A stretch of 64,000 nucleotides of DNA. Source: Lachnoclostridium sp. An181 (lineage in GTDB: Bacteria > Bacillota > Clostridia > Lachnospirales > Lachnospiraceae). The notes under the pieces are model-generated. The model was given only the letters and a program-made list of their open reading frames with translations. It ran no database searches and was not told the origin of the DNA. How positions within the stretch are numbered: the stretch's first letter is position 1; the number at the start of each line of letters is the position of its first letter. Position numbers and translations under genes: made by a program. Location of the stretch: NCBI RefSeq assembly GCF_002160325.1, contig NZ_NFKJ01000004.1, forward strand, positions 124,001 through 188,000, in the 5' to 3' direction. This document shows positions 25,822-42,108 of the stretch, one piece after another.

Positions 25822-26739
25822 ATGAATGAAGAAATTGTGTTTGAGGAACATGAGTGCAGAATAGGGCCTCATCCATGGAAGAGATTTTTGTCATATAACC
25901 TCGATAAAATCGTGTATCAGTTGGTTATGGGGGCTGTTGTATTCTTAGGATTTTGTGTGTATCCTTTGGAGAGAAGATTAGTGTTTACGATTTTGCAAAT
26001 CTGTTTGTTTTCAATCGTCTCACTTTTTGTTGATGCCATTTTGTTTTCTCTATTTGGGACTACTTTCGGAAAACTGATTTTTGGCATCCGCGTTCTGCAT
26101 GAAAGCAGCAGAAAGCTGACACTAAAAGAGGCACTTGGCAGAAATTTCTTGAGGTGGATCTATGGCGAAGGCTGTGGAATCGTGGGCGTGAGTATTTATC
26201 GTAATTTCAGGAGCTACCAGGCATGCAAAAGAGGGGAAGTGCTTCCATGGGATGATGAAGTGCGGTATGAATTCAAGGATCAGAAAGCGGTAAGGGGATT
26301 GGTATATGTTGTCTGTATTGTTTTCGTCTATATTGGTTCGTGGTGGGTCAGTGCAAAGGCGGTCATGCCAAGGATTCAAGGAGAATGGACCAGAGAGGCG
26401 TTCTGGGAAAATTATACAAATACAATGACGCATGTGTTCCATGCGGAAATCTATCATCCGGATATGGAGTTTAAAGAAACAGGGGAGAACTTGGAGGAGA
26501 TCCGGATTGAGCGCGAGGAGGATTCGCCGGGACATATAAAAGGAATTGGCTCAGAACTGGCTGCGGTGTACGCGGTAGTGGGGATGGAGCCGGGACGGGG
26601 CGGCTTTGATTATACCCATCTGATGCAGGTGATGGTAGAGTACGGAAGAGAGCAGACAGCAGACTTTCACTACGAAGATGAGTATGTGTCCATAAACAGG
26701 ACAAAGGATGAGTGTGTCATTACAATAAAAAAGTCTTGA
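25822..26739 (+). CDS. RDD family membrane protein
   Basis: 305 residues. The N-terminal half has RDD-type membrane helices with KRFLSYNLDKIVY and GTTFGKLIFGIRV, then a further membrane segment near residue 165 (GLVYVVCIVFVYIGSWWV). A charged extracytoplasmic domain of about 120 residues follows (EGEWTREAFW-like start, MEFKETGENLEEI). RDD proteins are poorly defined membrane proteins, some of them ion antiporters. GAGGAGGAAAAG precedes the ATG. It stands alone. Confidence 0.7.
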   Translation: MNEEIVFEEHECRIGPHPWKRFLSYNLDKIVYQLVMGAVVFLGFCVYPLERRLVFTILQICLFSIVSLFVDAILFSLFGTTFGKLIFGIRVLHESSRKLTLKEALGRNFLRWIYGEGCGIVGVSIYRNFRSYQACKRGEVLPWDDEVRYEFKDQKAVRGLVYVVCIVFVYIGSWWVSAKAVMPRIQGEWTREAFWENYTNTMTHVFHAEIYHPDMEFKETGENLEEIRIEREEDSPGHIKGIGSELAAVYAVVGMEPGRGGFDYTHLMQVMVEYGREQTADFHYEDEYVSINRTKDECVITIKKS

Positions 26740-26756
26740 CATAAAAAAGAAAACAC

Positions 26757-26785
26757 TTGACTTTTTGGCGGATACAGTGTAAAGT
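26757..26785 (+). promoter_or_regulatory. promoter of the metK riboswitch leader
   Basis: TTGACT (26757-26762), a 17-base spacer and TAAAGT (26780-26785), 34 bases before the first riboswitch stem. Confidence 0.5.
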
Positions 26786-26818
26786 CACTAGCGTAGTAAA
26801 ACTTAACACATGAGCTTT

Positions 26819-26915
26819 CTCTTATTCAGAGTGGTGGAGGTACAAAGGACCTGTGAAGCCACGGCAACCCCTTAAAGGAAGGTGCCAACCTGAGCGAGTG
26901 ATCGAACAATAAGAG
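26819..26915 (+). promoter_or_regulatory. SAM-I riboswitch (S-box)
   Basis: The P1 stem CTCTTAT (26819-26825) pairs with ATAAGAG (26909-26915). Inside are the conserved S-box blocks: AGAGTGGTGGAGG, then GAAGCCACGGCAACC and GGTGCCAACCTGAGCGA. Binding of S-adenosylmethionine should favour the terminator just downstream and lower expression of metK when SAM is plentiful. Confidence 0.96.
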
Positions 26916-26937
26916 GATTGATATATGAATCAGATAT

Positions 26938-26966
26938 AGCAGTCCGCTTACACGGGCTGCTTTTTT
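26938..26966 (+). terminator. riboswitch-controlled terminator
   Basis: AGCAGTCC (26938-26945) and GGGCTGCT (26954-26961) form an 8-bp stem with one wobble, followed by six T residues, between the aptamer and metK. Confidence 0.85.
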
Positions 26967-27026
26967 AATTGCTTTTCAAAAAGCAGTCCGACAGCGAGAG
27001 AAAGGATAGAAGAAAGGAAGGAAACA

Positions 27027-28214
27027 ATGGAAAAAATCTTATTTACATCTGAGTCTGTTACAGAAGGACATCCGGATAAAATGTGTGATGCGATTTCCGA
27101 TGCGATCCTTGACGCACTGATGGAGCAGGACCCGACAAGCCGTGTTGCATGCGAGACAGCAACGACAACAGGCATGGTACTTGTGATGGGAGAGATCACA
27201 ACGAATGCGTACATTGACATTCAAAATATTGTACGCGAGACGATCCGGGAGATTGGCTATACACGTGGAAAATTTGGATTTGATGCGGACAACTGCGGCG
27301 TGATGGTGATGATCGACGAGCAGTCTGCGGATATTGCGCTTGGCGTTGACAAGGCGCTGGAAGCAAAAGAGAACACAATGACAGAGGATGAGCTGGATGC
27401 GATCGGTGCAGGAGATCAGGGAATGATGTTCGGATATGCCTGCAATGAGACCCCGGAGTATATGCCATACTCCATTTCTCTTGCTCATAAACTTGCAAGA
27501 AAACTTGCAGAGGTGAGAAAGAACGGAACATTGCCGTACTTAAGGCCGGACGGAAAAACCCAGGTGACAGTGGAGTATAACGAAGAGGGAAGACCAATCC
27601 GCCTGGATGCGGTTGTTCTTTCCACACAGCATGATCCGGATGTGACACAGGAGAAGATTCACGAGGACATTAAAAAGTATGTGTTTGAGCCAGTGCTCCC
27701 AAAAGAAATGGTGGATGCTGATACAAAATTCTTTATCAATCCAACAGGGCGTTTTGTCATCGGAGGACCTCACGGTGACAGTGGTCTGACAGGAAGAAAA
27801 ATCATCGTGGATTCCTACGGTGGGATAGGGCGTCACGGCGGCGGTGCTTTCTCCGGAAAAGACTGTACAAAAGTGGACCGTTCCGCGGCATATGCAGCGC
27901 GCTATGTAGCGAAAAATATCGTGGCTGCAGGGCTTGCAGAAAAGTGTGAGATTCAGCTTTCCTATGCGATCGGTGTTGCACATCCGACATCCATCCGTGT
28001 GGATACATTCGGAACAGGAAAGTTGGAGGATACAAAACTCGTTGAGATCATCAGAAAACACTTTGATCTTCGCCCGGCAGGAATCATCAAGATGCTCGAT
28101 CTGAGAAGACCAATCTATAAACAGACAGCTGCCTACGGACATTTTGGACGCACAGATGTGGATCTGCCATGGGAAAAACTGGACAGAGTAGAAGAACTGA
28201 AAACTTATCTGTAA
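27027..28214 (+). CDS. metK: S-adenosylmethionine synthetase
   Basis: 395 residues. It makes SAM from methionine and ATP. The start [16 protein letters not shown] holds the ATP/Mg-binding His and Asp, [12 protein letters not shown] is the first signature, GGGAFSGKD the second, and GDSGLTGRK the phosphate site. It is controlled by the S-box leader upstream and followed by a strong hairpin. Confidence 0.97.
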
Positions 28215-28233
28215 AAAATAAAAAGAGCGGGGA

Positions 28234-28275
28234 GGCTGCGCGCATTTTGGGAGGAGAAATGTGCGCAGCCTTTCC
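28234..28275 (+). terminator. terminator of metK
   Basis: GGCTGCGCGCATTT (28234-28247) and AAATGTGCGCAGCC (28257-28270) make a 14-bp stem with one G-T pair. The following TTTCCCACTTTGTT resembles the right end of the repeat element at 8086-8256. Confidence 0.7.
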
Positions 28276-28382
28276 CACTTTGTTCCTAATTGAGTAGAAA
28301 GGAAGGGGAGGGTATGCTAAAATAGAGATAGTTTTAAAATACTGTCCGGCGACGGCAGGAGATATGGAAAAGAGGAGAGCAA

Positions 28383-29429
28383 ATGGATTATCGAAAAGAA
28401 CAATTCGGACAGACAAAGAAAAGTGAAAATGCGTCTTTGTATACTTTGTCAAATGAAAACGGAATGAAAGTGAAAATTACTGATTATGGGGCGAATGTAG
28501 TATCCATCATTGTAAAAGATAAAGCGGGAAACGAGCGGGATGTGGTGCTTGGATATGACGATGCATCCGGCTATGAACAGGGTGATGTTTTTTTTGGAGC
28601 ATGTGTGGGAAGAAATGCAAACCGTATTGGAGGGGCAAAATTTTCACTGAACGGCAAAATCTATGAACTTGCCAAAAATGACGGCGGCAAAAACAATCTT
28701 CACAGCGGACCGCATTGCTTTCACACCCGCATGTGGGAGGTTGAGAAAGTGGATGGCCATTCTATCACACTTTTTATCCACAGCAAGGACATGGAGCAGG
28801 GATATCCCGGAAATGCGGACATTCGAGTGACATATGAAGTGACAGAGGACAACGCTTTCCGGATTACATATGAAGGGGTTCCGGATGCGGATACAGTGTT
28901 TAATATGACAAATCATAGTTATTTTAATCTGAACGGACATGATTCAGGACTTGTATTGAACCAGAAAGTCTGGCTCAATGCAGAGAAATATACAGAGGCA
29001 AACAAAGACTCCGTTCCTACCGGACGGATTCTTGACGTAGCAGGAACGCCGATGGATTTTACCGAAGAAAAAGAGCTTGGAAGAGACATTGAGGAGGACT
29101 ATCCGGATCTTTGTTTTGGGGCAGGGTATGACCGAAGCTTTGTCATAAACGGAGAAGGGTACCGGAAAGCCGGTTCTTTGTATGCGAAAGAGAGCGGTAT
29201 TTTTATGGAGGTGTATACAGATTGTCCTGCAGTACAACTTTACACAGCCAACTATGTGATAGAAGAAAAAGGAAAAAACAGCGCAGTGTATGACAGAAGG
29301 CATGCGGTATGCTTTGAGACGCAGTTTTCCCCGGATGCTGTAAACCACAATAAATTTAAAAGCCCGGTTTGCAAAAAAGGACAAAAATATTTAAGCCGTA
29401 CTGCGTATGTGTTTGGTATCCGTAAATAA
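28383..29429 (+). CDS. galM: galactose mutarotase (aldose 1-epimerase)
   Basis: 348 residues of the beta-rich aldose epimerase fold. It interconverts alpha and beta anomers of hexoses. Motifs: FFGACVGRNANRI with the sugar-binding Asn-Arg, NMTNHSYFNLNGH with the catalytic His, FGAGYDRSFV, and ETQFSPDAVNH with the catalytic Glu. It has no sugar-operon partners here. A short A/T-rich hairpin (GAAAAAAG 29438-29445 / CTTTTTTC 29460-29467) just after it may terminate it. Confidence 0.92.
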   Translation: MDYRKEQFGQTKKSENASLYTLSNENGMKVKITDYGANVVSIIVKDKAGNERDVVLGYDDASGYEQGDVFFGACVGRNANRIGGAKFSLNGKIYELAKNDGGKNNLHSGPHCFHTRMWEVEKVDGHSITLFIHSKDMEQGYPGNADIRVTYEVTEDNAFRITYEGVPDADTVFNMTNHSYFNLNGHDSGLVLNQKVWLNAEKYTEANKDSVPTGRILDVAGTPMDFTEEKELGRDIEEDYPDLCFGAGYDRSFVINGEGYRKAGSLYAKESGIFMEVYTDCPAVQLYTANYVIEEKGKNSAVYDRRHAVCFETQFSPDAVNHNKFKSPVCKKGQKYLSRTAYVFGIRK

Positions 29430-29520
29430 AAAAGATAGAAAAAAGCTCTGATATCAAGACTTTTTTCAACAGAAAAATTTTCCTTTCCTGTTGTTTTACA
29501 AAAATTTTAGAAAAATTTAT

Positions 29521-29559
29521 GCCACCTTTCGTGTACGGGAGGTGGCAAAGTGCTATAAT
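29521..29559 (+). promoter_or_regulatory. dyad and promoter of the two-component operon
   Basis: GCCACCT (29521-29527) and AGGTGGC (29540-29546) form a 7-bp inverted repeat immediately before an extended -10, TGCTATAAT (TATAAT 29554-29559). The dyad covers the -35 position, so it could be an operator. Confidence 0.5.
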
Positions 29560-29592
29560 GGGGAGAAGAACTATGGCAAAGGATGAAGGCAG

Positions 29593-31089
29593 ATGAAGTT
29601 AAAAACAAAACTGATCGTCGCATTTGTGACATTGATCATACTCCCAGTAGGCCTGATCGTACTGGCTGTCTATGGGTTTGGAAGTTATCAGATCAAAGTG
29701 ATCGAGAAGACCTATGAGCTTTCCGGTACTACATATGAATCTCTTTTGAACTCCGTACAGATGATGAATCGCCTGGCAGAGCAGTCCTACCATAAATTGA
29801 AGGACATTGCACAGGAAGACCCGGAAAAGCTGGAGGATGCGACCTATCTGGACAAAGTGAACCAGAAACTGGAGAGAAAGAGTTCCTACCTGATCGTCAG
29901 AAGAGGGGAAAATATTTCTTATATTGGCGCAGATTCCACTAAGACACAAAAGGTCATCGAACATCTTCCGCAATATCAGGGCGAAGAGGGAGCCTCTGAG
30001 AATGGCGTTTATCTTGGAGGAGAGTCCAGAGCCCTTGTCAAACAAATAGATTTTCAATACCCGGATAAAGAAAAGGGAAGTATCTTTATCGTTACAGATG
30101 CTGCGAGCATGGTCCCTGAGGTGAAAGCTTTTCTTGTAGATATTGTGTTCGCAGTCATTGCCATTCTATTTTTGACGGCATCTGTATTTATCTTATGGAT
30201 ATACCGAAGCGTAGTCAGCCCCATCCGCAGGATGCAGGCAGCGGCGGCCAATATCAAGGAGGGCAATTTGGATTTTCATCTGGAGGCAGAGGCTGATGAT
30301 GAGCTTGGAGAGCTGTGTCACAGCATGGAGGACATGAGGCTGAAATTAAAAGACACTATGGAAGAAAAACTTGTGTATGACAAGGAGAGCAAGGAGCTTA
30401 TCAGCAACATCTCCCACGATCTGAAGACGCCGATCACAGCTATTAAAGGTTATGTGGAGGGGATCATGGACGGTGTGGCGGATACACCGGAAAAAATCGA
30501 CAAGTACATCCGCACGATCTATAATAAGGCAAATGAGATGGATGCTCTGATCAATGAGCTGACACTGTATTCCAAAATCGACATGAACCGCATCCCTTAC
30601 AATTTTGCCACAATTCCGGTAAATGCATATTTTGAAGACTGTGCGGAAGATTTATCCCTGGAGCTGGAGGCAAAAGGAGTGGATTTTTCATATTCAAATT
30701 TCGTAGAGGGGGATATCCGCATTATCGCGGACGCAGAGCAGTTAAAGAGAGTCATCAACAATATTGTCAATAACTCTTTAAAATATATGGACAAGGAGAA
30801 AGCAAAGATCCAACTGCGCGTAAAGGATGTGGGTGACTTTATACAGGTGGAACTGGAGGACAATGGCAAAGGCATTGCAAACAAAGATCTGCCAAATATT
30901 TTTGAACGGTTTTACCGCGCGGATGCGTCGAGGAATTCCTCAAAAGGAGGGAGCGGAATCGGTCTGTCCATTGTAAAGAAGATCATTGAAGAGCACGGAG
31001 GAAAAATCTGGGCTACGAGCAAAGAAGGTACAGGGACGATCATGTACTTTGTAATAAGAAAATATCAGGAGGTACCTGTTCATGAGTAG
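29593..31089 (+). CDS. sensor histidine kinase
   Basis: 498 residues. TM1 (about 7-28), an extracytoplasmic sensor domain (about 29-175), TM2 (about 185-208), HAMP (SPIRRMQAAAANIKEGNLDFHL), dimerisation domain with the phospho-His275 in NISHDLKTPITAIKGY, then an ATPase domain with N box INNIVNNSLKY and G boxes VELEDNGKGI and GGSGIGLSIVKKI. Its stop overlaps the response regulator start by 8 bases. The stimulus is unknown. Confidence 0.93.
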   Translation: MKLKTKLIVAFVTLIILPVGLIVLAVYGFGSYQIKVIEKTYELSGTTYESLLNSVQMMNRLAEQSYHKLKDIAQEDPEKLEDATYLDKVNQKLERKSSYLIVRRGENISYIGADSTKTQKVIEHLPQYQGEEGASENGVYLGGESRALVKQIDFQYPDKEKGSIFIVTDAASMVPEVKAFLVDIVFAVIAILFLTASVFILWIYRSVVSPIRRMQAAAANIKEGNLDFHLEAEADDELGELCHSMEDMRLKLKDTMEEKLVYDKESKELISNISHDLKTPITAIKGYVEGIMDGVADTPEKIDKYIRTIYNKANEMDALINELTLYSKIDMNRIPYNFATIPVNAYFEDCAEDLSLELEAKGVDFSYSNFVEGDIRIIADAEQLKRVINNIVNNSLKYMDKEKAKIQLRVKDVGDFIQVELEDNGKGIANKDLPNIFERFYRADASRNSSKGGSGIGLSIVKKIIEEHGGKIWATSKEGTGTIMYFVIRKYQEVPVHE

Positions 31090-31771
31090 AATATTGATTA
31101 TTGAAGATGAAAAATCCATTGCAGAGCTGGAAAAGGATTATCTGGAGCTGAGTGGATTTGAAGTGGAGGTGGAGCAGGACGGACAAAAAGGGCTTGTGAA
31201 AGCCTTGAAGGAAAATTTTGATCTGTTCATCCTGGATTTGATGCTGCCGGGAATGGATGGATTTGAGATCTGCCGTCAGATCCGCGATGAGAAAAATACA
31301 CCGATCATCATGGTATCGGCAAAAAAAGACGATATTGACAAAATCAGAGGACTTGGGCTTGGGGCGGATGATTATATGACAAAACCGTTCAGTCCAAGCG
31401 AACTTGTTGCCAGAGTGAAGGCGCATCTGGCAAGATATGAAAGACTGATCGGCAGCGCCGTTGAGGAGAACAAAGTCATTGAGATCAGAGGACTTAAGAT
31501 CGACACCACTGCAAGAAGGGTATGGGTCAATGGCGTGGAGAAGACATTTACCACAAAAGAGTTTGACCTGCTTACATTTTTGGCATCACATCCAAACCAT
31601 GTATACACAAAGGATGAACTTTTCAGCGAGATCTGGGACATGGAGTCAATCGGAGATATCGCCACAGTCACTGTGCACATCAAAAAGATTCGGGAGAAGA
31701 TTGAGTACGATACATCCAATCCTCAGTATATTGAAACAATCTGGGGTGTCGGATATCGGTTTAAAGTCTGA
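31082..31771 (+). CDS. OmpR/PhoB-family response regulator
   Basis: 229 residues. The receiver has acidic Glu-Asp near 9, phosphoryl Asp52 in LDLMLPG and Lys in TKPFSPSELVARV. The winged-helix output ends QYIETIWGVGYRFKV. It partners the kinase that overlaps it. The overlap and the downstream gene 18 bases later suggest an operon including the rRNA methylase. Confidence 0.94.
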   Translation: MSRILIIEDEKSIAELEKDYLELSGFEVEVEQDGQKGLVKALKENFDLFILDLMLPGMDGFEICRQIRDEKNTPIIMVSAKKDDIDKIRGLGLGADDYMTKPFSPSELVARVKAHLARYERLIGSAVEENKVIEIRGLKIDTTARRVWVNGVEKTFTTKEFDLLTFLASHPNHVYTKDELFSEIWDMESIGDIATVTVHIKKIREKIEYDTSNPQYIETIWGVGYRFKV

Positions 31772-31789
31772 GATTTGGGAGAGAGGAAC

Positions 31790-32578
31790 ATGATTACAAG
31801 CACAGCAAATGCACAGGTGAAACAACTGCTCCAATGGCAGAAGAAGAGCAGACAGAGGAATAAAGATGGAATTTTTCTTGTGGAAGGAATCCGCATGTGG
31901 AAGGAAGTGCCGAAAGAGCGGCTGCTCAAGGTATATGTTTCCGAAAGCTTTTTGAAGAGATATGAAAAGGACCTTAAAAATTCCACAGTCAGAACGGAAG
32001 TTTTGTCAGATCAAATTTTTGAACGGGTGTCGGATACGAAGACGCCCCAGGGGATTTTGTGTGTGGTAAAGAGAAAGGAGTACAGCCTGAATGATATCCT
32101 GAAAGGGGATGCTCTGTTTTTGGTCATTCTGGACAATCTTCAGGATCCGGGAAATCTCGGAACAATTGTAAGAACGGCAGAAGGCGCTGGAGTCGACGGG
32201 ATCATTATGAGCCAGGGGTGTGTGGATATCTACAATCCAAAGACGATCCGCTCTACCATGGGTTCCATTTACCGTATGCCGTTTTTGTATGCAGAGCATA
32301 TGGATGAGGTGTTTGGGATGTTAAAGGAAAAACAGATCACAGTGTATGCTGCACATCTGGAAGGAAAGACCTTTTATGATGAGCAGGACTATAGAAAGGG
32401 CTGTGCCTTTTTGATTGGAAATGAAGGAAATGGGCTGTCAGAAGAAATGGCGGCGAGCGCGGATGTGAAGATACGGATACCTATGTACGGCCAGGTGGAA
32501 TCTTTGAATGCAGCTGTGGCAACCTCTGTACTGATCTATGAGGCAAGCCGCCAGAGAAGACGGGCAAGCGTGGAGTAA
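31790..32578 (+). CDS. SpoU/TrmH-type RNA 2'-O-methyltransferase
   Basis: 262 residues. It methylates a ribose 2'-OH in rRNA or tRNA with SAM. The N-terminal substrate-binding part (QRNKDGIFLVEGIRMWKE) is followed by the SPOUT knot motifs LDNLQDPGNLGTIVRTAEG, FLIGNEGNGLSEE and IPMYGQVESLNAAVATSVL. ATG 31790 was chosen over a TTG at 31775 because GGGAGAGAGG lies between them. The target nucleotide is unknown. Confidence 0.9.
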   Translation: MITSTANAQVKQLLQWQKKSRQRNKDGIFLVEGIRMWKEVPKERLLKVYVSESFLKRYEKDLKNSTVRTEVLSDQIFERVSDTKTPQGILCVVKRKEYSLNDILKGDALFLVILDNLQDPGNLGTIVRTAEGAGVDGIIMSQGCVDIYNPKTIRSTMGSIYRMPFLYAEHMDEVFGMLKEKQITVYAAHLEGKTFYDEQDYRKGCAFLIGNEGNGLSEEMAASADVKIRIPMYGQVESLNAAVATSVLIYEASRQRRRASVE

Positions 32579-32597
32579 AGAATTATTCCAAAAAGTA

Positions 32598-32633
32598 GAA
32601 TGTTACTTGGATAAAAAGTAGCATTCTTTTTTT
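32598..32633 (+). terminator. rho-independent terminator
   Basis: GAATGTTACTT (32598-32608) and AAGTAGCATTC (32616-32626) form an 11-bp stem with one wobble, followed by seven T residues. Confidence 0.85.
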
Positions 32634-32717
32634 GTTTGTTTTGATACAGAACTTTATTTCTTTTCTCCCTTGTGGGGGCAGAGAAGTGACCTGAAGCATT
32701 GACAAAAGAGAGAGGGG

Positions 32718-32746
32718 TTGACAAAATTGAAATCCAATGTTAATAT
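32718..32746 (+). promoter_or_regulatory. promoter of the wall hydrolase gene
   Basis: TTGACA (32718-32723), 17 bases and TAATAT (32741-32746), followed by an A/T-rich leader of about 115 bases. Confidence 0.5.
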
Positions 32747-32861
32747 AATCGAACAGAATGTAACAATTCTGTAATAATTGTAATAAAAGCATCACATTCT
32801 CAATATGATAGAGGATGTACATAGCCAAATTACAGTTGTATATTAAAGGAGGATTTGAAAC

Positions 32862-33977
32862 ATGAAGGAGAATAAGAAAGTGCTCGCATGTGCATTGCTG
32901 TCAGGTTGCCTTGTTTTTACGGCAGTGTTACCGAGCAGTGCGGCAGCAACACAATCGGAAGCTCTGACAAACACGAGTATAAATAATGAAGGAAAGGCAC
33001 TGCTCTCAGTGGTGATGGATAAGATTCCGGAAGCAGCCGCGATTGCAGAAGAGACACAGGAATGGCATCAAAAGGCAGTTGCCAATGTAGATGTACAGGC
33101 CGATGTGCATGTCTCCATGCATGAGGACAGCGAAGTGGTCGGAAGAATCTACCACAACACCATTGTAGAGGTGGCAGATAAAGGAACCGTATGGTCCAAG
33201 ATCGTATCCGGCAATGTGACAGGATATGTGCAGAACAGCGCGCTGGCATTTGGCCAGGATGCGGTTGCGCGTGCGGAGGCGGTATGTCCGGAGGTTGCGA
33301 CAGCGCAGGACAAGACAGAACTTCGCGAAGAACCGAATGCCAAAGGGGAAGTAAAAGGATACGCCAGTGCGGAAAAACAGTACAAAGTCGTAGAAACGGA
33401 GAGCGGTGAAGATGAGCAGAATGGATTCATCCGCATTCAGGATGAAAACCAGGCGCAGTTCTACGTACCGGCAGAGTCTGTGACAGTGACAAGACCAAGC
33501 CAGACAGCAAAGACCATGGAGCAGATTCGCGCTGAAGAAGAGGCAAAGAAAAAAGCAGAGGAAGAAAAGCGCAGAGCAGAGGAAGCGGCAAAAAGAGCAG
33601 AAGAGGCAAAGAAAGCCGGGGCAACCAGCCCGGCGATGTCAGCCAGTGCAAGCGATGAGGAACTTTTGGCAGCCTTGATCTACTGCGAGGCAGGCGGAGA
33701 GCCGTATGAAGGCCAGGTGGCGGTCGGTGCAGTTGTGCTCAACCGTGTGCGCAGCGGAAAGTTTCCGAATTCGATCCGTGGAGTGATCTACCAGGCAGGC
33801 CAGTTCGGACCGGCTGTGACAGGGAAACTTGAGAGAGTGCTCGCATCCGGCAGGACAACCGACAGCGCAAGGCGCGCAGCAGCTGAGGCGCTTGCAGGGG
33901 TAAACCCAATCGGAGATGCGCTCTACTTTGGAAACGGAAATACAGGTTACCGTATCGGAGGACACTATTTCCACTAA
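32862..33977 (+). CDS. secreted SH3/SleB-type cell wall hydrolase
   Basis: 371 residues. Signal peptide about 1-28 (LPSSAAA cleavage region), two SH3-like modules (about 75-135 and 150-205), a charged coiled linker (EEEAKKKAEEEKRRAEEAAK) and a C-terminal Hydrolase_2 (SleB/CwlJ) domain from about 262 (LLAALIYCEAGGEPYEGQ with the catalytic Glu, VAVGAVVLNRV, ALYFGNGN). It should cleave peptidoglycan in the wall or spore cortex. AAAGGAGGATT precedes the ATG. Confidence 0.88.
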   Translation: MKENKKVLACALLSGCLVFTAVLPSSAAATQSEALTNTSINNEGKALLSVVMDKIPEAAAIAEETQEWHQKAVANVDVQADVHVSMHEDSEVVGRIYHNTIVEVADKGTVWSKIVSGNVTGYVQNSALAFGQDAVARAEAVCPEVATAQDKTELREEPNAKGEVKGYASAEKQYKVVETESGEDEQNGFIRIQDENQAQFYVPAESVTVTRPSQTAKTMEQIRAEEEAKKKAEEEKRRAEEAAKRAEEAKKAGATSPAMSASASDEELLAALIYCEAGGEPYEGQVAVGAVVLNRVRSGKFPNSIRGVIYQAGQFGPAVTGKLERVLASGRTTDSARRAAAEALAGVNPIGDALYFGNGNTGYRIGGHYFH

Positions 33978-33992
33978 GATAAAAGAAAAATG

Positions 33993-34040
33993 AAAAGGTG
34001 ACAAGGTCAAAAAGAAACATTTGGCCGCGTCGCCTTTTTT
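33993..34040 (+). terminator. terminator of the wall hydrolase gene
   Basis: AAAAGGTGAC (33993-34002) and GTCGCCTTTT (34029-34038) form a 10-bp stem with one wobble, followed by T residues. Confidence 0.65.
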
Positions 34041-34101
34041 GATTATTTGATATGGATGCGTGTATAATGATAGATAGTAAAAAGGACGGGAGGTGCGCAG
34101 C

Positions 34102-36207
34102 ATGCAGCCAGTGATAGATTTGACAAAGGAATATGGGATTGTACTGGACGGAGGAGGAGCGAGAGGAGCCTATCAGATAGGGGCGTGGAAAGCGCTGGGA
34201 GAGGCTGGAGTAAAAATTACAGCCGTTGCCGGAACATCTGTAGGCGCACTCAATGGAGCGCTCATCTGCATGGGTGATGTGGAGAAGGCCCAGAGGATAT
34301 GGAAAGAAATCCGGTTTTCAAAGGTGATGGATGTGGACGATGACTGGATGGAGAGGTTTTTTAACAAGGAAATACCCTTGTCTGAACTTTTCCTGGAACT
34401 GAAGGAGCGGATCAAGGATGGCGGGGTAGATATTACACCGTTAAAAAATCTGATCCACACATATATTGACGAAGAGAAAGTCAGAAAATCGGGAATTGCA
34501 TTTTATCTTCTGACCTTTTCCCTGACAGATAAAAAAGAGCTGGAGCTGTGCGTGGATGAGCTGGAGGAAGGGACTTTGGAAGACTTTCTTCTGGCAAGCG
34601 CATCTTTGTGGGGATTCAAAAATGAACCAATGAGAGATGGAAAACGGTATATGGACGGAGGGGTTGTAAACAATGTCCCGCTTGGCTCCCTTGCAAAGCG
34701 GGGATATAAAAATATCATTTCCATACGCATCCACGGGCCGGGGAGAGAACCGAAGGTACAACTTTCGGAAGGAACAAAGGTATATGAAATCAGTCCAAGA
34801 GTCCGGCTTGGAAGTATTCTGGAATTTGACAAAAAGCGCAGCAAGCTGAATATGAAGATCGGATATTATGACGCAAAACGGGTTTTGTACGGTCTCGTAG
34901 GGCGGATATACTATATTGAAGAAACAAAAGATACGTGCTATTATGAAAAGAAACTGCAAAGCCTAAGCGAGGTAGAGAAAGCGCAGGCTGCCTTTGTGTT
35001 GAAACTTCCGCTTGGCTATGATGAGAAAGATTTGTACATGGGTATGCTCGAGGCAGCGGCAAAATTGCTCGGCATACCGAAATACCGGATATACAAAGTA
35101 GAGGAACTGGAGGAGGCGGTGGAGCGCGCGCTGGGGGAAAGGCAGGAACAGGAAACGCTGCCGCGTTTTGTACGCTATTGGATGCGTATCAGGGAGGAAG
35201 GCAAAATGAAATTAACGGGAAGAGATTTTTTGACACTAAAAGATTTTACAGAAGAGGAAATACTCTATCTTCTGGATCTGGCAAAAGATTTTAAGAAAAA
35301 GAAAAAAGAAGGCGTGCCGGTTGACATTTTAAAAGGGAAAAATGTGGCTCTTATCTTTGAAAAGACGAGTACAAGGACAAGGTGCGCATTTGAGGTTGCG
35401 GCACATGATCTTGGGATGGGGACGACCTATCTTGATCCAAGCGGCTCTCAGATCGGCAAAAAGGAGAGCATTGCGGACACTGCCCGCGTGCTGGCAGGTA
35501 TGTACGATGGTATCGAGTACCGCGGATTTGGACAGGAGATTGTGGAGGAGCTTGCAAAAGGGGCGAATGTGCCGGTGTGGAATGGCCTGACAAATGAGTT
35601 TCATCCTACCCAGATGCTGGCGGATATGCTGACTATTCAGGAACATTTCGACCGCCTGAAGGGACTGAAACTGGTGTACATGGGGGATGCCCGCTTTAAC
35701 ATGGGCAATTCCCTTATGATCGCCTGTGCAAAGCTGGGGCTTGACTTCACTGCGTGTGCACCCGAGAAATATTTTCCGGACAAAGAGCTTGTAAAGCAAT
35801 GTGAGGAATATGCGAAACAATCCGGCAGCACATTATCTTTTATCACGGACGTGGAAGAGGGAACTAAGGATGCGGACATTATCTGCACGGATGTATGGGT
35901 ATCCATGGGAGAACCGGACGATGTGTGGGAAGAGAGAATCCGGGAGCTCACCCCTTACAAGGTGACAAAGGATGTCATGGCAAATGCAAAGAAGAGCGCA
36001 ATCTTCCTCCACTGTCTTCCTGCCTTCCATGATCTGAAGACCACGATCGGCAAACAGATCCACGAAAAATTTGGTCTTACGGATATGGAAGTGACGGATG
36101 AAGTGTTTGAATCGTCCCAGTCGAAAGTATTTGAGGAGGCTGAAAACAGGATGCACACCATAAAGGCAGTTATGGCTGCAACGCTCAGTGAAAAGGAGCT
36201 TTTATAA
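34102..36207 (+). CDS. patatin-like phospholipase fused to ornithine carbamoyltransferase
   Basis: One 701-residue frame holds two complete enzymes. Residues 1-368 are a patatin-like lipase: oxyanion loop [11 protein letters not shown], nucleophile GTSVGALNG, catalytic Asp in DGGVVNNVP. From Met369 (35206) a full 333-residue ornithine carbamoyltransferase follows: carbamoyl phosphate site [28 protein letters not shown] and ornithine site HCLPAFHD. An ideal ribosome site AGGGAGG (35191-35197) lies 8 bases before that Met, so the second enzyme can also be made alone. Removing one A from the AAAA at 35203-35206 would end the patatin at Lys with a TGA overlapping the ATG, so the fusion may be recent, slippage-prone or a sequencing error. 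The TAA overlaps the next ATG. Confidence 0.85.
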
Positions 36208-36992
36208 TGAGAAACAATGCACTGAAACCATACCTTACTACTGCGTGGGCAGGGCAGTGCTTTCTGTATGAGGAGGAGACAGATTCCACAAACCTTATGG
36301 CAAAACGGCTTGCAAAAGAAGGGGCAGCACACGGAACACTGGTGTGTGCTGCCCGCCAGAGCGCAGGGAGGGGGAGAAGAGGGAGGACGTGGATTTCCGA
36401 GGAAAACGGAAACATTTACATGAGTCTTTTGCTGCGTCCTGATATGGAACCTTCCCACGCACCGATGATGACCCTGATCATGGCGTACAGTGTGGCAAAG
36501 GCAGTGGAACAGGTCTGCAAAGTGAAGACAGGCATCAAATGGCCCAACGATATTTTGAATGGCACAAAAAAAATATGCGGGATTCTCACAGAGATGGGCA
36601 TGGACAAAGGCATGATTTCCTATGTGGTCATTGGAGTGGGCATCAATACAGGACAAATGGAAATTCCGGAGGAGTTAAAGGACAAAGCCTTCTCCCTTGA
36701 CATCGGAAAGGAACAAAAAGAAGAACTCATGGCTGTGTGTATGAACTTGTTTGAGGAGAATTATGAAACATTTGCGGGCTGCGGTTCTTTGAAGTTTCTG
36801 AAAGAAGAGTATGAGACAAGACTTGTCAACAGGGGGAAGACCGTGTGTGTGCTGGAGCCGGGAAATGAGTACAGAGGGCGTGCGCTTGGTATTACCGAAA
36901 AAGGCGAGCTTTTGGTGGAAAAAGAGACAGGAGAGATCGTGGAAGTATATTCCGGGGAAGTGTCAGTGCGCGGGGTATACGGATACGTGTAG
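36207..36992 (+). CDS. biotin-protein ligase without DNA-binding domain
   Basis: 261 residues. The catalytic core has RQSAGRGRRGRTWISE (biotinyl-AMP loop), GIKWPNDIL and GILTEM with a C-terminal SH3-like cap. There is no N-terminal helix-turn-helix, unlike the second ligase at 55975-56970, so this copy should be an enzyme only. It attaches biotin to carboxylase carrier domains. Its ATG shares a base with the preceding stop codon, giving close coupling. Confidence 0.88.
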   Translation: MRNNALKPYLTTAWAGQCFLYEEETDSTNLMAKRLAKEGAAHGTLVCAARQSAGRGRRGRTWISEENGNIYMSLLLRPDMEPSHAPMMTLIMAYSVAKAVEQVCKVKTGIKWPNDILNGTKKICGILTEMGMDKGMISYVVIGVGINTGQMEIPEELKDKAFSLDIGKEQKEELMAVCMNLFEENYETFAGCGSLKFLKEEYETRLVNRGKTVCVLEPGNEYRGRALGITEKGELLVEKETGEIVEVYSGEVSVRGVYGYV

Positions 36993-37008
36993 GATAGAAG
37001 GAGAAACT

Positions 37009-37338
37009 ATGTACGAAGACAAAGTAGTGTTGTGCGGTGCAAACGCATACGAACGAAAATATTATCTGAATCCGGATTTTGAAAACCTTCCGGAGCATAT
37101 AAAAAATGAGCTGAAGATCATGTGCGTGCTGTATACAGAGGACGTGGGGGGAATCCTCACACTTTCCTATGAAGAGGACGGGACTCTTGTATTCGATGTG
37201 GCGAGTGAAGATTACGATCCGGGATTCGATGAGATAGGCAGCAGGCTGAAGATGAAAGAAATACAGAGGACAAAGGGAGAACTTTTAAGGTCACTGGAGC
37301 TGTATTACAAAGTTTTCTTTTTGGGAGAGGAGATCTAG
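37009..37338 (+). CDS. DUF6145-like hypothetical protein
   Basis: 109 residues, cytoplasmic (KVVLCGANAYERKYYLNPDFENLP, FDVASEDYDPGFDEIGSRLKM). It resembles small Lachnospiraceae proteins often found upstream of coaX. AGAAGGAGAAAC precedes the ATG at 37009, and the stop abuts the coaX start. Function unknown; the family name is from memory. Confidence 0.65.
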   Translation: MYEDKVVLCGANAYERKYYLNPDFENLPEHIKNELKIMCVLYTEDVGGILTLSYEEDGTLVFDVASEDYDPGFDEIGSRLKMKEIQRTKGELLRSLELYYKVFFLGEEI

Positions 37339-38109
37339 ATGTTATTAGCAATTGATGTCGGAAACACCAATATTACGCTGGGACTGTTCCGGGGAGAAAA
37401 TCTGGTCGCTCAGTTTCGAATGACTACAAAATCAGAGAGGACTTCCGATGAGTATGGGATTTTTCTCTGCAGCCTGATCGAGCACAAAGGATTTTCTGTG
37501 CAGGAGGTGGAAGGCGTGATCATTGCCTCCGTAGTGCCGGATATCATGCACTCGCTGACAAGCGGGATCATCAAGTACTTTGAAACAACGCCTTTGATCG
37601 TCTCTGCGGGGATCAAGACCGGAATGCGCATTCTCACGGAAAATCCCAAACAGCTTGGCGCGGACAAGATCGTAGATGCAGTGGCAGCCCACAAACTGTA
37701 TGGAGGGCCGGCGATTGTCATTGATTTTGGAACAGCCACAACCTTTGATCTGCTCAATGAAAACGGAGATCTGATCGCAGGCGTGATAGCGCCCGGGATC
37801 CGTACCTCCGCAAGAGCGCTCTGGGGAAGGGCTGCCATGCTGCCGGAAGTGGAGATCAAAAAACCGGAGTCCATCCTGGCAAAGGAGACGATCTCCAGTA
37901 TGCAGGCGGGGCTTGTGTACGGGTACATTGGACAGACAGAGTACATCATTGACAGAATGAAACAGGAGTCCGGATATATGGATGCAAAAGTAGTGGCAAC
38001 AGGAGGTCTTGGAAAGATCATTGCAAAAGAGACCCCGGTCATTGATGTGTATGATCCGATCCTCACGCTTGTGGGACTTCGGATGATCTACGAAAAAAAT
38101 AAACGGTGA
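37339..38109 (+). CDS. coaX: type III pantothenate kinase
   Basis: 256 residues of the ASKHA fold. It phosphorylates pantothenate, the first step of coenzyme A synthesis. Motifs: [15 protein letters not shown] (phosphate 1), [22 protein letters not shown] (phosphate 2 and catalytic Asp), GGLGKIIA (adenosine). Starts immediately after the stop of the DUF6145-like gene and is followed after 12 bases by dusB. Confidence 0.94.
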
Positions 38110-38121
38110 GCAAAAGGACAG

Positions 38122-39096
38122 ATGAAAGAATTAAAGATTGGAAATGTAACACTGAAAAACAGATATATACTCGCGCCAATGGCAGGAGTATCTGACATGC
38201 CTTTCAGGTGTCTTTGTCAGGAACAGGGCGCATCTCTTTTGTGTATGGAGATGATCAGCGCTAAAGCCATCCAGTACAACAACAGAAACACAAAAGAACT
38301 TTTAAAAATCCATCCCCGGGAAGACAAGGTTTCCCTTCAGTTGTTTGGTTCTGACCCGGACATTATCAGCGAAATCGCAAAGCGAATTGAAGAACTGCCT
38401 TTTTCCAGCCTGGATATCAATATGGGCTGCCCGGTGCCTAAAATCGTAAAAAATGGCGAAGGATCTGCGCTTATGAAAGAGCCGCGTCTTGTGGAGGAGA
38501 TTCTGGACAAACTGGTAAAAGCCATTAAAAAGCCCGTTACAGTAAAAATCCGAAAAGGATTTGATGATACGTGTATCAATGCAGTGGAGATCGCAAAGAT
38601 CGCGGAGGGGTGCGGAGTGGCGGCAGTCGCAGTACACGGAAGGACAAGGGAACAGTATTATTCGGGAAAAGCGGACTGGGAGATCATCCGCAAGGTTAAG
38701 GAGGCGGTCTCCATTCCCGTGATCGGAAACGGGGATGTGACATCCGCAGAAAAAGCACAGGAAATGTTTGTGGAGACTGGCTGCGACGGCATTATGATCG
38801 GCCGGGCAGCCCAGGGAAATCCATGGATCTTCCGGGAACTTGTGGAGTATGAAAAAACAGGGATTGTCCCGAAAAGACCGGATATTCACGAAGTAAAGGC
38901 AATGATGCTGCGCCACGCAAAGATGCAGATGGAGCATAAAGGAGATTATCTTGGCATTCGGGAGATGAGAAAACATGTGGCATGGTATACCACAGGGCTG
39001 CCAAACTCAGCGAAACTAAGGGATGCCATCAATCATGTGGAAAGCTATGGAGAGCTGGAAGAACTTTTGGAGAAAAAACTGGAAGAAAAAGTATAA
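38122..39096 (+). CDS. dusB: tRNA-dihydrouridine synthase
   Basis: 324 residues, FMN-dependent reductase of uridines in the tRNA D-loop. LAPMAGVSDMPFRCLC is the FMN-binding start, NMGCPVPKIVKNGEGSALM has the catalytic Cys, VHGRTREQYYSGKADW and GNGDVTSAE the FMN phosphate sites, and GRAAQGNPWIF closes the barrel. It ends the run birA-like/DUF6145/coaX/dusB. Confidence 0.93.
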   Translation: MKELKIGNVTLKNRYILAPMAGVSDMPFRCLCQEQGASLLCMEMISAKAIQYNNRNTKELLKIHPREDKVSLQLFGSDPDIISEIAKRIEELPFSSLDINMGCPVPKIVKNGEGSALMKEPRLVEEILDKLVKAIKKPVTVKIRKGFDDTCINAVEIAKIAEGCGVAAVAVHGRTREQYYSGKADWEIIRKVKEAVSIPVIGNGDVTSAEKAQEMFVETGCDGIMIGRAAQGNPWIFRELVEYEKTGIVPKRPDIHEVKAMMLRHAKMQMEHKGDYLGIREMRKHVAWYTTGLPNSAKLRDAINHVESYGELEELLEKKLEEKV

Positions 39097-39101
39097 ATAA
39101 G

Positions 39102-39151
39102 AAAGCCTGCTGATACATATAATGTACAAGTATATGACAGGGGGCTTTTTT
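39102..39151 (+). terminator. imperfect hairpin after dusB
   Basis: AAAGCC (39102-39107) can pair with GGGCTTT at the other end of a 30-base A/T-rich stem-loop, followed by a T run. It lies only 2 bases before the greA promoter. Confidence 0.55.
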
Positions 39152-39152
39152 C

Positions 39153-39181
39153 TTGACATTGCGGGGGTAATCATGTATAAT
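39153..39181 (+). promoter_or_regulatory. consensus promoter of greA-lysS
   Basis: TTGACA (39153-39158), exactly 17 bases and TATAAT (39176-39181), a perfect vegetative promoter, with a leader of about 110 bases. Confidence 0.9.
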
Positions 39182-39298
39182 ACCAGAATTGCGGGAATAT
39201 ATGATTTTAGCGTAATGACGGTGAAGAACCGTATGAAAAAAGCAATATACCAGGCCAAAATGGCTGATTTCGTCTTGAAACCAGGGAGGATGTAAATA

Positions 39299-39781
39299 AT
39301 GGAAGAAAAGAAAACAATACTTACTTATGCCGGATTAAAAAAACTGGAAGAAGAGCTTGAAAACTTAAAGGTCGTAAGACGTAAAGAAGTTGCGCAGAAA
39401 ATCAAAGAGGCAAGAGAGCAGGGCGACCTGTCCGAGAATGCAGAATACGACGCAGCAAAAGATGAGCAGAGAGATATTGAGGCGCGCATTGAAGAACTGG
39501 AAAAGATCTTAAAAAATGCGGAAGTAGTAGTGGAAGATGAGGTAGACCTGGAAAAGATCAATATCGGCTGCACAGTGACTGTGTATGACAATGAATTTGA
39601 AGAAGAGATTGAGTTTAAGATCGTAGGTTCCACGGAGGCAAACAGCCTTCAGGGGAAGATCTCCAATGAGTCTCCGGTCGGAAGAGCGCTACTTGGACGG
39701 AAAGTCGGAGACACAGTGGAAGTGGAAACACAGGCAGGAGTAATTGAGTATAAAGTACTGAAAATCGACAAATCAATTTAA
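39299..39781 (+). CDS. greA: transcription elongation factor GreA
   Basis: 160 residues, the standard size. The N-terminal coiled coil ([21 protein letters not shown]) with the acidic tip EYDAAKDEQ stimulates cleavage of backtracked RNA in RNA polymerase. The C-terminal domain contains [19 protein letters not shown]. It is followed after 12 bases by lysS. Confidence 0.96.
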
Positions 39782-39793
39782 GGAGTGAGGAAC

Positions 39794-41722
39794 GTGGCGG
39801 AGCAGAAAAATGTACAGGAACAGGACCTGAACCAGTTGAGAAAAGTTCGCCGTGAAAAATTGGCGGAGCTGCAGGCAAACGGAAAAGACCCGTTTGTCAT
39901 CACAAAGTATGATGCAACTCATCATAGTATGGAAATCAAAGACAATTTTGAAGAGTTAGAAGGAAAACCGGTATCCGTGGCAGGACGTATCATGTCCAAG
40001 AGGATCATGGGAAAAGCGTCTTTCTGCAATATCCAGGACCTGCAGGGGAATATCCAGTCCTATGTGGCAAGAGACAATATCGGGGAAGAATCCTACAAAG
40101 AATTTAAAAAGATGGATGTGGGCGACATTGTCGGCATCAAAGGTGAGGTTTTCAAGACCAAGACAGGAGAAATCTCCATTCATGCATCCCAGGTGGAACT
40201 TTTGGCAAAGAGCCTTCAGATCCTTCCGGAGAAATTCCATGGGCTGACAAACACAGATCTTCGTTATCGTCAAAGATATGTGGATCTGATCATGAACCCG
40301 GATGTAAAGGATACCTTTATCAAACGCTCCAAAATCCTGAGCGCGATCAGAAGATATCTGGACGGAGAAGGATTTATGGAAGTGGAGACGCCGATGCTTG
40401 TGGCAAACGCAGGAGGAGCTGCGGCAAGGCCGTTTGAGACACATTTTAATGCTCTGAGTGAAGACTTTAAACTTCGCATTTCCCTGGAGCTGTACTTAAA
40501 GAGACTGATCGTGGGAGGAATGGAGCGCGTATATGAGATTGGACGTGTATTTAGAAATGAAGGTCTCGACACAAGACACAATCCGGAATTTACATTGATG
40601 GAGCTTTACCAGGCATACACAGACTACAACGGAATGATGGATCTGACAGAAAATCTGTACCGCTATGTGGCAAAAGAAGTGCTTGGCACAACAGTCATCA
40701 CATACAACGGGGTTGAGATGGACCTTGGAAAACCATTTGCGCGCATGACAATGATAGATGCTGTGAAAAAATACGCAGGTATTGACTGGAACGAAGTGGA
40801 GACACTGGAGCAGGCACGCGCACTTGCAAGGGAGCATCATGTGGAATTTGAAGAGCGCCATAAGAAGGGAGATATCCTTTCCCTGTTCTTTGAAGAGTTT
40901 GCAGAAGAACATTTGATCCAGCCGACCTTTATCACAGACCACCCGATTGAGATTTCACCGCTCACAAAGAAAAAACCGGACAACCCGGATTATGTGGAGC
41001 GTTTTGAGTTCTTCATGAACGGATGGGAGATGGCAAACGCATACTCTGAGCTGAACGACCCGATCGATCAGAGAGAGCGTTTCAAAGCCCAGGAAGAACT
41101 TCTGGCACAGGGAGATGAAGAGGCGAACACAACGGACGAGGACTTCCTCAATGCGCTGGAGATCGGTATGCCGCCTACAGGTGGAATCGGATTTGGAATT
41201 GACAGAATGTGTATGCTGCTTACAAATTCCGCAGCGATCAGAGATGTTTTGTTGTTCCCGACAATGAAGTCACAGGGCGCAGTAAAGAACGAAGTAAACA
41301 ATGCAGCACAGTCTGTAAAAGCAGAAGAAAAACCGGCGGAGAAGATAGATTTCTCCAAGGTAGAGATTGAGCCGCTTTTTAAAGATTTCGTTGATTTTGA
41401 GACATTTTCCAAGTCTGATTTCCGGGCAGTAAAGGTAAAAGAGTGTGTGGCTGTTCCGAAGTCCAAGAAACTCCTGCAGTTTACTCTGGATGATGGAACA
41501 GACGAAGAACGCACGATTTTAAGCGGAATTCATGACTATTACGAACCGGAAGAACTGGTAGGCAAGACATGTATTGCCATCACAAACCTGCCGCCGAGAA
41601 AGATGATGGGCGTTGATTCCTGCGGTATGCTGATCAGTGCAGTACATCAGGAAGAGGGAGAGGAAAAGCTTCATCTTCTGATGGTGGACGACCACATTCC
41701 GGCTGGTGCGAAGTTATATTAA
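39794..41722 (+). CDS. lysS: lysyl-tRNA synthetase with C-terminal tRNA-binding domain
   Basis: 642 residues. A class II aaRS: OB-fold anticodon domain ([18 protein letters not shown]), motif 2 [18 protein letters not shown], motif 3 [15 protein letters not shown]. After a linker of about 30 residues an EMAPII/Arc1p-like tRNA-binding domain follows ([19 protein letters not shown] to [15 protein letters not shown]). GTG 39794 was chosen, 8 bases after AAGGAG; the GTG at 39785 overlaps that site. The extra domain should raise affinity for tRNA; it is uncommon outside Clostridia. Confidence 0.95.
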
Positions 41723-41865
41723 ATCATTCTTCCAGGATAAGAAAAAACCATTGTTCCTGACAAGAAAATATTAATTTGACAACAAATTCAAGCTTAATCA
41801 TGAATTATCATGAAGAGTGGTAAATAGTTGTCATTCATCCAATGCCGGCAAATACGATTGCAGAA
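41723..41865 (+). other. intergenic stretch after lysS
   Basis: A/T-rich, no gene seen. A plus-strand frame ends VIHPMPANTIAEGAAALI and a stop inside the following palindrome, and could be the tail of a lost gene; I do not recognise it. Confidence 0.3.
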
Positions 41866-41906
41866 GGGGCTGCCGCACTAATTTAGTGCGGCAGCCCCGT
41901 TTTTTT
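41866..41906 (+). terminator. strong GC-rich terminator
   Basis: A perfect 16-bp stem (41866-41881 with 41883-41898), followed by G and seven T residues. It lies between lysS and the HTH fragment on the other strand. Confidence 0.85.
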
Positions 41907-42108
41907 AGAAAGCTGCTGTTTTGAGCTCCATTTGCATATGTGATCCTGGAAGAGTCATAGGTACAGTTTCAACAGACTCCCATTTTGCCACAGCCTGCCT
42001 GGTCACACCGATTTTCTCACCCATTTCTTCCTGGAAATATTTGTGATACTGGCGCAGAGCGGTTATATTTTGAGAAATCAGATTTGATTGTTTTTCATGT
42101 ATTTCCAA
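41905..42108 (-). pseudogene. truncated XRE-type helix-turn-helix protein
   Basis: 67 residues. ITALRQYHKYFQEEMGEKIG followed by VTRQAVAKWESVETVP is a Cro/C1 helix-turn-helix, normally RQAVAKWESGE-VPD followed by a longer chain. Here it turns after VP into an unrelated tail (MTLPGSHMQMELKTAAF) and stops at the terminator. It is probably the 5' end of a regulator joined to foreign sequence by deletion. Confidence 0.55.

Follow-up and report, generated by a model that had tools for sequence, protein, structure and literature searches.

A patatin-like phospholipase fused in frame to ornithine carbamoyltransferase in Lachnospiraceae, with a putative inner start for the free carbamoyltransferase

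A patatin-like phospholipase and a complete ornithine carbamoyltransferase (OTC) follow each other in a single 701-codon ORF in Lachnoclostridium sp. An181, on the forward strand of the 64,000-nucleotide stretch of contig NZ_NFKJ01000004.1 analysed here (the window). The frame runs from an ATG at 34102 to a TAA at 36205–36207; the ORF listing also offers an alternative upstream start, a GTG at 34093. Judged from sequence comparison across the family, the patatin–OTC fusion is real, old and kept with few breaks. The locus is probably a nested gene, a single frame giving both a patatin–OTC protein of ~79 kDa and a free OTC of ~37 kDa. Ribosomes starting at 34102 would meet no stop at the patatin end and make the ~79 kDa protein, while those starting at the inner Shine-Dalgarno and ATG (35206) would make the ~37 kDa enzyme. 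Free OTC would then make up most of the trimeric enzyme that serves arginine synthesis, and patatin molecules would ride on OTC trimers of mixed fusion and free subunits, the tail helix presumably lying ahead of OTC helix 1. We infer the making of both proteins from the features of the locus listed here and their conservation in relatives.

34039..34068, + strand: sigma-70-like promoter TTGATT-18-TATAAT, 33 nt upstream of the patatin ATG (consensus scan only, 10/12 matches)
34088..34093, + strand: patatin Shine-Dalgarno GGGAGG (sequence)
34102..36207, + strand: fused ORF, patatin-like phospholipase + ornithine carbamoyltransferase, 701 aa, about 79 kDa (sequence, Pfam, TIGR00658)
34138..34689, + strand: patatin domain PF01734, residues 13–196, with nucleophile Ser46 in GTSVG and Asp185 in DGG
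35158..35205, + strand: patatin tail, a linker of 16 codons (helix 355–367 in the structure model)
35191..35197, + strand: inner Shine-Dalgarno AGGGAGG, within the coding frame, 8 nt from the inner ATG
35206..35208, + strand: inner ATG, in-frame putative start of free OTC (about 37 kDa), residue 369 of the fused ORF
35206..36207, + strand: OTC, long type, the sole sequence in the genome above the OTC cut-off
36207..36992, + strand: ORF that we take to be birA (biotin ligase); overlaps the OTC stop by 1 nt and is, in relatives, the fusion partner in three loci

A run of four A residues (35203–35206) lies within the patatin–OTC junction, and no terminator-like site was present on the + strand between the two parts. 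At the far end, the OTC stop and the birA start overlap in a TAATG at 36205–36209; the N-terminal helix-turn-helix present in the BirA of locus L063 was not seen, by eye, in the window's birA. The search for RNA elements in 26000–42000 found only a SAM riboswitch (26819–26915, 74.6 bits), an ordinary one ahead of an ORF at 27027 that resembles what we take to be metK.

Profile searches and alignment agree with the ORF reading and bear out the original prediction that two complete enzymes, each with its motifs, share one frame; its coordinates were right wherever they were checked. The first half belongs to the Pfam patatin family PF01734 (103.3 bits; cut-off 27.7). In the second, the OTC domains occupy residues 374–693 (OTCace_N, 169.9 bits, cut-off 29.9; OTCace, 181 bits, cut-off 29.4), and the score for TIGR00658, the OTC family, was 421.1 bits, above the curated cut-off of 280.85. 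Membership of the OTC subfamily PRK04284 (NF003286) was rejected, as 502 bits fall below its curated cut-off of 515. Across 32 aligned fused proteins, the window's and 31 others, the patatin motifs GGG (17–19), GTSVG (44–48, with Ser-46) and DGG (185–187, with Asp-185) are invariant (32/32); we take the Ser nucleophile in GxSxG and the Asp in DG[GA] to be the patatin hallmarks. Equally invariant (32/32) are STRT (423–426), HPTQ (501–504) and HCLP (637–640), the last of which we presume to be an OTC motif. SxRT and HPxQ are given as OTC motifs in excerpts of PMC4581275.

An AlphaFold model of the fused protein (mean pLDDT 84, pTM 0.56) shows both halves folded, with an unreliable placing of one relative to the other, and has a helix at 355–367 followed by a break ahead of the OTC. 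The modelled OTC half matched solved OTCs with a TMt of 0.95–0.96 for the best five. Since all 50 structure matches listed were OTCs, only sequence served to place the patatin half. By phmmer it matched PlpD (PDB 5fqu) with an E value of 3.5e-12, residues 10–218 of the 366 in the query being aligned; PlpD shares the patatin domain with the fused protein, and its solved chain of 314 residues carries no transcarbamylase. Both halves look complete.

A search of 60 relatives yielded a full-length fused ORF in one more genome, at 61% identity and with no A-run at the join. For a wider survey, patatin loci were drawn from GTDB genomes with names (the best 80 of 459 relatives) and from 397 further genomes of the family, 73 of which had this patatin at E<=1e-60; these searches were unselected for fusion, except one that used a fused ORF as query. 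Eight of the 187 patatin loci had neither OTC nor BirA in the fetched stretch and were dropped (L032, L037, L189, L196, L197, L204, L208 and L213; seven stop at 366–414 codons, and the contig ends 229 codons into L213). Removal of near-duplicates (>98.5% identical) reduced the resulting 179 rows to 120, in which one genome (G384) is doubled among the separate rows because both of its loci, L147 and L193, were retained. The patatin is fused in frame with the next gene in 62 of the 120 loci: with a long-type OTC in 38, a short-type OTC in 21 and BirA in 3. The other 58 comprise 57 with separate genes and one (L050), counted apart, that a contig end cuts just past the join. Fused loci occur in named strains of Faecalicatena contorta, Dorea phocaeensis, Coprococcus comes, Mediterraneibacter massiliensis and Sporofaciens musculi, and one (L056) is in AP025573.1, an assembly titled complete genome.

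OTC is the recognised next gene in 49 of the 57 separate rows (L125 among them), and the gap is −4 to 200 nt in 45 of these 49, with the three phases represented 14, 16 and 15 times. Separate patatin and argF genes in other Lachnospiraceae therefore resemble the fused locus in gene order and enzymes and differ from it in their separate frames or intervening stop. Beyond the family, no fusion was met at E<=1e-185 in 390 other genomes of the class, a sample that held some genomes of the same family and evidently no fused ones.

In a patatin tree built without the tail, all 62 fused rows group in a single clade of 65 rows (SH-aLRT 99; 100/99 in the careful tree, against three outgroup rows). Within it, only two loci have separate genes: L125, with a TAG two codons ahead of the ATG, and L095 (Suipraeoptans), whose patatin overlaps birA by 4 nt. 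The fusion state requires three changes on this tree, one gain and two losses. Most simply, the join would have arisen once, in the ancestor of this Lachnospiraceae clade, when the patatin stop was lost ahead of the neighbouring argF. A sister placing of the window's patatin with Sellimonas (SH-aLRT 91) was dropped, as the careful tree gave 48/14. An in-frame join in dozens of species upholds the view that the fusion is real; the refuting case first proposed, relatives with separate genes throughout, fails for the window's own clade and holds for the more distant Lachnospiraceae patatin loci.

The AGGGAGG ahead of the inner Met is well placed, as predicted, with a spacing of 8 nt; a genome-wide search for the AGGGAGG-ATG pattern found the motif to be frequent and taught us nothing further. 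The inner start codon over the 59 fused OTC loci is ATG in 57, GTG in one and ATC in one. The ATC (L099, 5114–5116; Candidatus Dorea intestinavium) has an in-frame TTG two codons downstream. The anti-Shine-Dalgarno duplex energy is −7.25 at the join (n = 59), compared with −3.23 at 1286 other in-frame ATGs and −10.09 at the starts of separate OTC genes (n = 45), the inner Shine-Dalgarno being on average weaker than in the latter. It exceeds the mean of a synonymous null in 47 of 59 loci (sampled control ATGs, 166/330), and only 10 of 59 beat their own null at p<=0.05; for the window itself the energy is −10.9 and p is 0.28. The mRNA fold at the junction is −5.29 compared with −11.69 for the synonymous null, and is the weaker in 56 of 57 loci (sampled controls, 79/177). 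OTC codon 3 (Leu) is TTA in 57/59 fused loci and 37/49 separate OTC genes, and TTA makes up 8% of Leu elsewhere in the fused ORFs. In all these start-signal counts the rows are related and codon usage is pooled across species, so that they are not independent events. Start codon, Shine-Dalgarno and open mRNA, the signals of in-frame internal initiation, are thus found together over the set of 59, with L099 as the exception, and the inner ATG appears to be functional as a start.

The same data bear on a plain obligate fusion, in which a 79 kDa bifunctional enzyme would be the only product and the inner start signals would be vestiges of a once-separate argF. The stop-free single ORF speaks for it. 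So do the Shine-Dalgarno weaker than in separate genes, the count of only 10 of 59 loci beyond their synonymous null and the ATC in place of the inner ATG in L099, all of which also count against the nested gene. However, vestiges should have decayed across a subtree that spans 9.25 amino acid changes per column, whereas synonymous sites around the inner ATG appear held against drift (TTA in 57/59, a weak fold in 56/57). We regard an obligate fusion as unlikely.

We then considered the missing stop. The test covered the 58 fused OTC loci whose tails align in register, L099 being left out. The last ten codons ahead of the inner Met carry 210 non-synonymous and 94 synonymous inferred changes, a near-neutral ratio of about 0.73, from which 12.5 (by non-synonymous changes) to 18.1 (by synonymous changes) stop gains would be expected. 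These 58 loci were picked as fused and are stop-free by construction, so the fair comparison is with breaks across the 65-row clade, which amount to a single in-frame stop, in L125, and a single frame break, in L095; related rows are non-independent here and parsimony counts rough. No indel was seen in the 16-codon tail, and the Pro and Phe of an LPxF motif stand at a constant distance from the inner Met in 57/58, which indicates a fixed linker length. Over the 32 codons around the join, the +1 frame contains a stop in 59/59 loci and the +2 frame in 22/59. Stop avoidance could partly serve the patatin tail itself.

These counts are hard to reconcile with a reading in which the product of importance is free OTC from inner initiation, while lack of the stop has no selective effect and the fusion protein is incidental. 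Start signals at the inner ATG would be expected on such a reading, and repeated exchange of the partner, including BirA in three loci, tells against a fixed domain partnership. Yet a neutral tail should have gained 12–18 stops rather than the one stop and one frame break found in 65 clade rows, and should not hold its Pro/Phe spacing to Met in 57/58 without a tail indel. We therefore think it improbable that the fusion protein is a by-product. On the nested-gene reading, which we prefer, the absence of a tail stop and the inner start both look to be under selection; that L125 and L095 live with separate genes speaks against it.

The remaining proposal, that a sequencing error or a slippage-prone A-run has artificially joined two genes, draws on the AAAA at 35203–35206 and the ATGA in the window and is refuted for the clade by the in-frame join in 58 other OTC loci, in dozens of species, named strains and AP025573.1, and by the presence of AAAATG at only 4 of 59 fused OTC junctions, which leaves no conserved slippery run to act as a switch. 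The arithmetic behind the proposal was right: with one A less, the patatin would end at Lys-TGA and the OTC would start at the overlapping ATGA. A recent one-base change from a coupled pair, as first suggested, is nevertheless contradicted by the age of the join and by the 55 of 59 junctions that lack AAAATG. ATG is followed by AAT, AAC or AAA in 48/59 fused loci; the ATGA arises because this is the usual OTC N-terminus, and alone it is no trace of a former overlap.

The partner behind the join has been exchanged. The OTC tree divides deeply into a long and a short type, and both are found behind the same patatin tail. Parsimony gives 9 partner changes within the clade; well-supported branches, with each label counted alone, force at least 3 for the long type, at least 4 for the short type and at least 3 for BirA. 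The window's OTC groups with separate long-type OTCs (88, OTC tree), a placing of weak support. In L051, L063 and L089, which have no OTC next and sit on two separate branches of the patatin tree, the patatin ORF continues in frame into birA. Genome G147 has a patatin (L155) with no difference from that of L051 across 330 residues, and in it neither OTC nor argG had a match above the cut-offs. Such exchange argues against a specific patatin–OTC partnership. The conserved OTC N-terminus (Met-Asn/Asp-Leu-Lys-Gly-Arg) could be a recombination anchor that keeps the frame. Across Lachnospiraceae, separate genes included, the two OTC types also alternate at the patatin–argF locus, with 20 partner changes by parsimony over 119 rows, counting BirA.

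It is possible, if doubtful, that the stop-less patatin is kept joined to whichever enzyme adjoins it, either OTC type or, where argF is missing, BirA. The partner may then act as a general-purpose oligomer or anchor to which the phospholipase is attached: an OTC trimer, for instance, might array three patatins on the membrane, with the amount of free OTC from the inner start as the tuning factor, and so connect the turnover of lipids with the supply of arginine.

The fused OTC is the sole match above the TIGR00658 cut-off in all 11 fused-OTC genomes tested. argG scored above its cut-off in the same 11, and in 13 of the 14 genomes searched overall. A search for the arginine deiminase gene arcA was negative in these 14 genomes (the same search was positive in 3/14 control genomes), so a catabolic OTC of the arginine deiminase pathway was rejected. 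Being the only OTC, with argG present and arcA absent, the fused enzyme is most likely biosynthetic.

Fusions and inner starts are known kinds; what is new is their combination with partner exchange behind a fixed join. Fusions of ATCase with CPS2 and DHOase join enzymes of one pathway, unlike the patatin–OTC protein, in which a phospholipase-like protein is joined to OTC. These transcarbamylase fusions, the subject of the review PMC4581275, resemble patatin–OTC in having a transcarbamylase on a larger chain. Excerpts on Salmonella SpaO (PMC13059759) and archaeal Cas11b (PMC11899642) describe in-frame internal initiation that yields a long and a short product, as proposed for patatin–OTC: one ORF, an inner start and a C-terminal part also made alone. 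As described there, the short product of SpaO or Cas11b is part of one protein, whereas that of patatin–OTC would be an entire metabolic enzyme from a different family, one that otherwise exists on its own. Full-text searches of open-licence literature, judged by titles and abstract openings, gave no published account of a patatin–OTC fusion among the papers listed.

In the fused Lachnospiraceae genomes tested, the sole OTC shares one chain with a patatin-like phospholipase, a link that could be missed when genes are annotated by their best domain. The locus offers a natural case in which a fusion junction and an inner start have seemingly been kept together while the fused partner was exchanged. 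A mutation in the patatin part could alter how much OTC is available, and the arrangement makes it possible to ask directly if these bacteria couple lipid hydrolysis to arginine synthesis.
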